DNA from: Dirofilaria immitis
Lineage: Eukaryota; Nematoda; Chromadorea; Rhabditida; Onchocercidae
Length of the DNA stretch: 64,000 bases
Assembly (NCBI GenBank): GCA_024305405.1
Contig: JAKNDB010000087.1
Coordinates: 1,426,001 to 1,490,000, forward strand
Direction: 5' to 3'
Shown: piece after piece, positions 55,950-57,055 of the stretch
How positions within the stretch are numbered: position 1 is the first letter of the stretch
Layout of the letters: every line of letters begins with the position of its first letter
Program-made: the position numbers and the translations under genes
Notes under the pieces: model-generated
The model's database searches: none
What the model saw: the letters and a program-made list of their open reading frames with translations, nothing else
What the model was told of the DNA's origin: nothing

Positions 55950-56118
55950 AATGTTTTTAAATATTGCAGAGAACATAAGGGCTATTTCTTTGCTAGAAGA
56001 TGCAATTAGGTCTGTTCCAAAGAGCTTGCGCTATGGCTTTCTGGCTCATGAGGATCTAATTTATCAGGTGTACCAGTTGCAATATTACAAAATGCACAAG
56101 CACGAGTGCAAGCAGAAC
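55950..56118 (-). pseudogene. lipA: lipA (lipoyl synthase) fragment, Wolbachia-type
   Basis: The minus strand reads CTRACAFCNIATGTPDKLDP followed by HEPE. This is the radical-SAM CxxxCxxC iron-sulfur motif and next segment of lipoyl synthase, which inserts sulfur into octanoylated proteins. The match ends after HEPE near 56040. Beyond this the frames are broken by stops, and another frame (LFGTDLIASSSKEIALMFSA) may belong to a further, unidentified piece. Only about 25 codons are certain. It cannot encode a working enzyme. Confidence 0.75.
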
Positions 56119-56207
56119 AAAGAATCATCACATATATAAAAAACACTATATACTATAGGGGTAATTTTATTCTTCTATTTATTACACATATAATAAATAA
56201 ATAACGA

Positions 56208-56256
56208 CCTGGGGTGGAGCAGCTCGGTAGCTCGTCAAGCTCATAACCTGAAGGTC
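56208..56256 (+). pseudogene. 5' two-thirds of a bacterial initiator tRNA (fMet)
   Basis: The run GGGGTGGAGCAGCTCGGTAG followed by CTCGTC, then CTCATAA (anticodon CAT) and CCTGAAGGTCG, is the D arm and anticodon arm of a bacterial tRNA-fMet. The T arm and 3' acceptor are missing; sequence changes at about 56257. The anticodon stem (TCAAG/CCTGA) has one A-C mismatch where initiator tRNAs have a G-C pair, a sign of decay. It cannot form a tRNA. Confidence 0.85.
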
Positions 56257-56257
56257 G

Positions 56258-56406
56258 CCGATGATTTCTGGGCCATCTACAGGATCAATAAACTGAAGAA
56301 CTTCCAATTCTTTATTGATAAATCCTTCAAGTTGTGGACTATATTTTACAGAATCCAAACTGTTTCCCGTGAGGTAGTAAACATGCTCTTGCTCAGGCTT
56401 CATTCT
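56258..56406 (-). pseudogene. htpG: htpG (bacterial Hsp90) fragment, Wolbachia-type
   Basis: The minus strand encodes MKPEQEHVYYLTG, NSLDSVKYSPQLEGF and KELEVLQFIDPVD. This matches the middle-domain segment of HtpG that usually reads ...IYYLTG.S...V..SP.LE.F...EVLF..DP.D. After DPVD the sequence (GPEIIG) leaves the family, about 20 bp before the tRNA piece. The frame is open and continues straight into the pth piece without a stop, so the two make a chance fusion frame of 134 codons on the minus strand (56586-56182). Confidence 0.85.
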
Positions 56407-56541
56407 GAATTCTGCTTTCTCAGAAAATGGCTGGAGGCTCCAATATTTGCAAACTACATCAACAATGAGAAAACCGATATTATGATAGGTTAGCTTGTAT
56501 CGGCTACCTGGATTACCAAGTCCAACTACTAAATACACTAT
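56407..56541 (-). pseudogene. pth: pth (peptidyl-tRNA hydrolase) N-terminal fragment
   Basis: About 45 codons read YLVVGLGNPGSRYKLTYHNI, then GFLIVDVVCKYW and PFSEKAEF. The GLGNPG and HN motifs (catalytic His of YHNIGF) mark bacterial peptidyl-tRNA hydrolase, which frees tRNA from stalled peptides. Only the first quarter of the roughly 190-residue enzyme is present. It joins htpG directly at the GAATTC at 56407-56412. Confidence 0.88.
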
Positions 56542-56582
56542 TCTCCTGTTTCCGCAATTGTTCTTTGATATCTTTGCTCGAA

Positions 56583-56820
56583 CCACGATTTAGCATTCAC
56601 TCCAATAGATTGGAGAGTGATTGCTAGTAGGCTGCAAGAAGTATGTTCTCCTGCTGAGAGTAGAACATCATATTCTGATAGTTCTCCTCTGTGATTTAAA
56701 TTTGAGATTTATTTGTCTAGCCTGAAGGGCCAACCTCCTAATCCTGCTCAGATAAATCCTGCGATAGCAGAAACAACAACGATTACGTTGTAACCTTTTT
56801 CGACATCTTTTTTATTAAGT
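56583..56820 (-). pseudogene. lysC: lysC (aspartate kinase) fragment, frame-broken
   Basis: Two parts on the minus strand fit aspartokinase. The first reads VEKGYNVIVVVSAIAGF (about 56745-56808), the region after the N-terminal kinase motif. The second reads GELSEYDVLLSAGEHTS, then CSLLAITLQSIGVNAKSW (56695-56583), with the conserved S-GE and ALQ.IG..A.SW segments. Between them the frame shifts and meets stops. Aspartate kinase makes aspartyl phosphate for lysine and diaminopimelate synthesis. The piece covers roughly residues 25-120 of about 400. Confidence 0.82.
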
Positions 56821-57053
56821 TTGCAACTCGAAACAAGAAAGATTCTTCAGGATGCAAGAGATGCTATATATAGTATAGTTGATATTTCAAGTGATAAGGA
56901 AGTAGTTTTTACATCTGGAGCAACTGAAGCAAATAACCTTATTATGCGAGGAGCAACAGGCTTTCAGCATGTAGTTTCAACTATAGAGCATCCTTCAATT
57001 CTTAATTTTAATCAATTTAAAAACAAAAAAAACATTCAATCTGCTTCTTTTTA
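56818..57053 (+). pseudogene. iscS: iscS/nifS (cysteine desulfurase) fragment
   Basis: The plus strand encodes LQLETRKILQDARDAIYS, then VVFTSGATEANNLIMRG and HVVSTIEHPSILN, before running into Lys/Asn-rich sequence and a TAA near 57051. The FTSGATEANNL and IEHPS motifs are the cofactor-phosphate site of the PLP-dependent cysteine desulfurase IscS, which supplies sulfur for Fe-S clusters. It covers about residues 25-100 of some 400. The catalytic Cys and the PLP Lys are absent, so it is not functional. Its first bases overlap the end of the lysC piece. Confidence 0.88.
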
Positions 57054-57055
57054 AA

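Follow-up and report, generated by a model that had tools for sequence, protein, structure and literature searches.

Within the window, that is, the 64,000-nucleotide stretch of Dirofilaria immitis DNA analysed here (contig JAKNDB010000087.1 of assembly GCA_024305405.1, positions 1,426,001 to 1,490,000 of the forward strand), positions 55983-57007 (∼1 kb) consist of seven pieces derived from wDi, the Wolbachia of D. immitis (NZ_CP046578.1). The pieces are 58-249 bp long each and lie nearly end to end on both strands, with no unmatched stretch longer than 27 bp between them. We consider it likely, with good confidence, that the seven wDi pieces were joined and captured in a single chromosome-break repair in D. 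immitis.

The whole genomes of wDi and of wDcau (the Wolbachia of Dipetalonema caudispina) were searched with positions 55900-57100 of the window. BLAST against wDi gave E-values between 1e-25 and 2.5e-91 for all seven pieces, at 88-97% identity. When the window was compared with wDi 1-800000 in a local repeat search, the pieces scored 113-331 bits, as against at most 44.6 bits for the reversed window that served as control. The features are as follows (A to G are the seven pieces):

55964-55981, + strand: piece Z (tentative), 18/18 identical to wDi 711104-711121
55983-56040, + strand: piece A, pstC (phosphate ABC transporter permease), wDi 182354-182411, 58/58 identical
56038-56132, + strand: piece B, lipA (lipoyl synthase; gene antisense here), wDi 553164-553258
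56133-56257, + strand: piece C, upstream region and first 50 nt of tRNA-Met, wDi 743242-743373
56258-56273, no strand: C/D filler, 16 bp, with a 12-bp inverted copy of wDi 110819-110830
56274-56407, + strand: piece D, htpG (antisense), wDi 110827-110960
56408-56413, no strand: D/E filler, 6 bp, without significant template (p = 0.45)
56414-56555, + strand: piece E, pth (antisense), wDi 729143-729284
56556-56582, no strand: E/F filler, 27 bp, no source found
56583-56831, - strand: piece F, aspartate kinase gene (lysC), wDi 608422-608188
56830-57007, - strand: piece G, iscS/nifS-type cysteine desulfurase gene, wDi 627606-627429

Of the six coding sources, those for PstC, lipoyl synthase, aminoacyl-tRNA hydrolase and aspartate kinase attain a curated NCBIfam cut-off. 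The source of piece D, for which the C-terminal 214 residues were used as query, matches HtpG with a score that does not attain the cut-off set for the whole protein; the source of piece G matches NifS/IscS-type cysteine desulfurases, all of them below cut-off, and iscS/nifS is therefore used here as a family name only. Translated and compared with representative genomes, the iscS piece has its best relative in wDi (90% amino-acid identity), with wDcau next. The tRNA part of piece C corresponds to the first 50 of the 75 nt of the wDi tRNA-Met (anticodon cat), and neither ARAGORN nor Rfam at gathering scores calls a tRNA at this place in the window.

A preliminary description of this DNA had listed six fragments between 55950 and 57055, beginning with lipA. 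All six named fragments are present, but the clear pieces number seven: pstC had been missed, and it is pstC that comes first, with lipA second (by NCBIfam profile match). The limits had also been drawn too wide, since the right end lies at 57007 (no wDi match was found beyond it) and the left end at 55983, or at 55964 if piece Z is included. Piece Z ends 1 bp ahead of piece A, and its source falls within an opposite-strand ORF of 427 aa that, by eye, resembles a DEAD-box helicase. It is a probable rather than a secure eighth piece, because the window shares 18-mers with wDi at a rate of 4.5e-4 per position; a second such 18-mer (55954-55971, equal to wDi 517359) overlaps piece Z and was not counted as a piece.

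The seven pieces come from seven separate places in wDi, five taken on the plus and two on the minus strand and at least 14 kb apart (the closest pair is E and C, 14 kb), which bears out the earlier claim of unrelated Wolbachia fragments on both strands. In wDi record coordinates, the sources of neighbours in the window are separated by 371 kb (A-B), 190 kb (B-C), 632 kb (C-D), 618 kb (D-E), 121 kb (E-F) and 19 kb (F-G), and the order of F and G is reversed relative to wDi. In wDcau all seven pieces could be located as well, again at seven separate places, the closest two being F and G (19 kb). It had been pointed out beforehand that finding all pieces adjacent, in the same order, in one Wolbachia genome would speak against a mosaic origin; none of them are neighbours in wDi or in wDcau. 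We further searched 41 genomes of the genus Wolbachia, all 41 of which gave a match. Among the matches listed, wDi is the best for 7/7 pieces; read by eye, these matches include no joined pieces, and the smallest distances among them are ∼3.3 kb between C and F, in a few genomes, and ∼7 kb between F and G, in one.

The complete mosaic is present as a single copy in the 86.7-Mb host assembly (65 contigs), in which no part of it has a second match at E <= 0.01. It lies inside a 9.58-Mb contig. Its left-hand neighbours are minus-strand BBS1 exons (Pfam BBS1 at 53845-54129 and 54663-54944), the nearest exon found being ∼1 kb away; to its right, no gene was found before an ion-channel exon at 62190 (seven frames tested). 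We assume that the mosaic lies between genes. Two other features of the window may be recorded here. The stretch at 59415-59534, 2.4 kb downstream of the mosaic, matches wDi 372241-372361 at 75% identity over 121 bp (80.6 bits), a sequence inside a 481-aa ORF (ABC1/UbiB kinase-like, by eye), and contains stops in the frame tried; it is likely an older independent insertion. Apart from a repeat at 22910-22973, it is the one noteworthy match to wDi 1-800000 that the window has outside the mosaic. Positions 19347-20396 hold overlapping open frames on the minus strand that are rich in Phe, His, Ser and Ile, with a GC skew of 0.32-0.49, and are probably a non-coding tandem repeat.

The inner joins are of two kinds. 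Three of the six are blunt or share microhomology: TTT (3 bp) is common to both pieces at A/B, GA (2 bp) is common to both at F/G, and B/C is blunt (0 bp). The remaining three (C/D, D/E and E/F) carry filler of 16, 6 and 27 bp, respectively. The 16-bp filler holds GATGATTTCTGG; in inverted complement, this is the wDi sequence lying across the left end of D. The best match of the whole filler in 800 kb of wDi is this same place (3 mismatches in 16), and the 12-bp inverted copy was equalled by none of 2000 letter-shuffled fillers when compared with the local source flanks. Among the four fillers or replacements given this template test, C/D is the only significant one: the 6-bp filler (D/E, p = 0.45), the replacement inside F (p = 0.08) and E/F (p = 0.997) gave no significant template. 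The 27-bp filler was also considered as a further Wolbachia or nematode piece and rejected; it has no match at <=3 mismatches in the 41 Wolbachia-genus genomes and matches itself alone in the worm genome, although masked wDi stretches could hide a source. Inside F, 4 bp are inserted near 56707, and 20 bp replace 9 bp near 56731-56750. Both changes are placed on the nuclear side, because two aligned outgroups agree with wDi there.

Relative to wDi, the mosaic carries 51 substitutions over 966 aligned bases (A 0/58, B 3/95, C 9/125, D 7/134, E 10/142, F 15/234 and G 7/178; part of the differences in F fall within indels and depend on the alignment). The pieces do not differ significantly in divergence (chi-square 7.1, 6 d.f., p = 0.31), in a comparison whose power is limited at 0-15 substitutions per piece. 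Substitutions were polarised with wDcau as outgroup or, for F, with another Wolbachia genome (957,990 bp), which we take to be that of Onchocerca ochengi: 35 of the 51 fall on the nuclear side and 12 on the wDi side, and 4 are unresolved. There are 39 transitions and 12 transversions, and the 42 substitutions in coding pieces are spread 15:10:17 over the codon positions. Decay that is not significantly different among the pieces and mostly nuclear-side thus fits one old event, presumably a neutrally decaying insert to judge from these sequence comparisons, and speaks against a library chimera; such divergence is also compatible with several insertions close in time. Because change on the wDi side amounts to ∼1.2%, whereas at F wDi differs from the outgroup by 10.6%, the insertion may be dated roughly to the Dirofilaria lineage, after the split from Onchocerca.

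To see the mosaic against the other Wolbachia matches in the worm genome, seven 20-kb segments of wDi, picked as holding the seven sources and amounting to ∼15% of wDi, were used as queries. They gave 35, 66, 40, 36, 44, 34 and 37 matches, respectively, at E <= 1e-6, all shorter than 850 bp. No match of symbiont length to these seven segments exists in the assembly, and live Wolbachia contigs therefore appear to be absent from it. From the 292 matches we removed 36: 31 to a ∼67-bp repeat near wDi 629.8 kb and 5 to wDi 180021-180200. The 31 matches to the ∼67-bp stretch (wDi ∼629774-629862) occur in tandem-like groups at 81-87% identity, and the stretch also matches positions 22910-22973 of the window (up to 54.5 bits); these are probably repeat similarity and not insertions. 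The 256 matches kept, 7 of which are the window's own, have a median length of 166 bp; 28 of them are 98-100% identical to wDi, 50 are at 95-97%, 54 at 90-94%, 60 at 80-89% and 64 below 80%, the last class possibly including ordinary worm genes. Among the 249 matches outside the mosaic, median length from the youngest to the oldest identity class is 184, 170, 140, 152 and 173 bp, that is, 184 bp for the 28 matches at >=98% and 173 bp for the 64 below 80% (for example, one match is 275 bp long at 100% identity), and length is not correlated with identity (Spearman rho -0.08, p = 0.19). Even the youngest of the sampled insertions are short (∼180 bp).

For a neighbour test, one row was dropped (C10:10168277, the weaker of two wDi matches to the same DNA), and merging of collinear neighbours left 232 loci outside the window. 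Five non-collinear neighbour pairs lie within 500 bp of each other, about ten times the chance value (in 2000 uniform placements the mean was 0.48 and the maximum 4). Within 20 bp there are 2 pairs as compared with 0.14 expected (maximum 2), and within 1000 bp there are 5 as compared with a mean of 0.73, the placements' maximum of 5 being equal to the observed number. Unlinked pieces are thus joined well above chance in the worm genome, by an enrichment that is counted on 5 pairs and against uniform placement, which ignores insertion hot spots. Extrapolated from the 15% sample, ∼28% of some 1,500 loci would be in composites, with the wide margin that five pairs imply. Capture of several micro-fragments at once, as known from complex numts, looks like a usual route in this genome.

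Other loci noted in the same search are given here by coordinates. Two of the five pairs, at C17:6275567-6275880 and C4:2192822-2193152, consist of unlinked wDi pieces that abut (the gaps are -1 and -17 bp); they are on opposite strands and 92-98% identical, and both loci are candidates for further mosaics. At C58:335011-336739, Wolbachia-like sequence (73-81%) contains four successive copies of a 140-bp unit of wDi 630778-630917 and looks like an old insertion that underwent tandem duplication.

Other histories for the mosaic have to be weighed against a single capture. A fragile site could have taken up Wolbachia pieces successively over a long time, and the older Wolbachia-like piece at 59415-59534 suggests that the region was probably hit at least twice; piece A, with no substitution in 58 bp, also contrasts with the 7% in C and E, though this is within chance. 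The seven pieces themselves, however, show no significant difference in divergence, none is more than 27 bp from the next, two of the joins have 2-3 bp common to both sources, and in the rice comparison of PMC6215612 mosaic organelle inserts showed no recurrence. We regard such recurrent insertion as unlikely. Still less likely, indeed very unlikely in our estimation, is one long Wolbachia insert that was later shattered and deleted within the worm chromosome. The suggestion made for Brugia, that long inserts may be recent ones which neutral processes have yet to break up (PMC12693587), would favour such a history; here, one insert large enough to include all seven sources would cover ∼550 kb of wDi, even on a circular map, and would have to be reduced to 1 kb with altered order and strand, and across the genome the young matches do not exceed the old ones in length.

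Live symbiont DNA might instead have been ligated or misassembled into worm sequence. Symbiont DNA is abundant in such samples, and the identity of piece A to wDi across its whole length is what such an artefact would give, yet live symbiont reads would be intact and nearly identical, whereas 6/7 pieces differ from wDi by 3-7%, the substitutions are largely nuclear-side and spread over codon positions, and F carries frame-breaking indels. The mosaic is moreover a single locus inside a 9.58-Mb contig, and other candidate composite loci exist, and we find a chimera of the assembly or library extremely improbable. The same low probability applies to a Wolbachia donor in which the sequences were already side by side. 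Wolbachia genomes rearrange often, and the spacing of C-F and of F-G in some of the 41 genomes (see above, among the matches listed) shows that some sources can come closer together than in wDi. Against this, no pair is closer than 14 kb in wDi and wDcau, none is joined in the 41 genomes among the matches listed, and the cuts would fall inside the housekeeping genes pstC, lipA, htpG, pth, aspartate kinase and cysteine desulfurase, which are open reading frames in wDi; a donor so rearranged is scarcely credible.

We therefore return to a single capture during break repair, in which several pieces of degraded symbiont DNA would have been free in a germ-line cell. Their ends would have been joined by error-prone end joining, either non-homologous or mediated by polymerase theta (the theta step is a candidate), giving joins that are blunt, that have 2-3 bp in common or that carry short filler, and one templated copy of the fold-back (inverted) kind; the 12-bp inverted copy at C/D would result from fold-back or template-switch synthesis at one end. 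The joined product would then have sealed a chromosome break and, having no function of its own, would have decayed neutrally after insertion. That the pieces were joined before or during insertion had been proposed in the preliminary description, and the junction anatomy and the absence of a significant decay difference among the pieces fit this proposal. The same route, acting genome-wide, would account for youngest sampled nuwts of only ∼180 bp.

The mosaic has the features by which nuwts are recognised: Wolbachia origin (7/7 pieces), nuclear location (a 9.58-Mb contig, with BBS1 exons beside it) and unconstrained decay (substitutions mainly on the nuclear side, frameshifting indels in F). 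Published counts are 483 nuwts for D. immitis (PMC12693587) and 531 for O. volvulus, seven of them longer than 1 kb (PMC5310847), and nuwts in Dirofilaria and Onchocerca number hundreds per genome, mostly of supergroup C (PMC12693587, PMC5310847). Like the filarial nuwts of these articles and of PMC3849323, the mosaic is short, decayed Wolbachia sequence in a chromosome; unlike nuwts as described there, it packs seven unlinked sources into 1 kb and bears end-joining scars. No mosaic or joined nuwts are described in the accessible parts of PMC12693587, PMC3849323, PMC5310847, PMC5429809 and PMC4299567 (the words 'mosaic' and 'rearrange' are absent from the available text of PMC12693587), nor, judging by titles and the openings of abstracts, in the open-licence papers listed by literature searches.

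Closer parallels come from organelle DNA and from break repair. In plants, the joins of complex numts and nupts are blunt or of 3 bp (PMC6215612), and the current consensus on plant organelle inserts is that their pieces are concatenated before they are inserted or in the process (PMC6215612, PMC2820518). The mosaic resembles complex numts/nupts and numins (same sources) in having non-contiguous pieces (seven donor places, the nearest two 14 kb apart), mixed orientation and, at three of six inner joins, blunt ends or short homology. It differs from complex numts/nupts in that its DNA came from an animal's endosymbiotic bacterium instead of an organelle, its pieces are 58-249 bp long and one join has inverted templated filler. 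Such filler has counterparts in fold-back templated inserts of ∼5-34 bp at yeast breaks (PMC11724301) and in templated inserts made by polymerase theta in C. elegans (PMC5068794). At one of its four stretches tested (C/D), the mosaic resembles these alternative end-joining scars in having a short templated, inverted filler taken from beside a break end; unlike in those scars, the copied end is captured foreign DNA.

Nuwts serve to reconstruct past infections, through counts of regions and the origin assigned to each. Tentatively, and with confidence that falls slightly short of even, we propose that Dirofilaria nuwts are born shattered, symbiont genomes arriving in germ-line nuclei as debris of ∼100-300 bp from which break repair strings together several random pieces as a patch, that about a quarter of the ∼1,500 are in composites, and that their record is a continuous log of break repair in the germ line and of symbiont lysis, not of gene transfer. 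If many nuwts were assembled from debris at once, region counts would misstate the number of events and length would be no clock, and if many are composite, one locus could mimic several transfers. Mosaic nuwts would then be a natural, datable record of the entry of endosymbiont DNA into the animal germ line, and would also record which end-joining pathway handles it.
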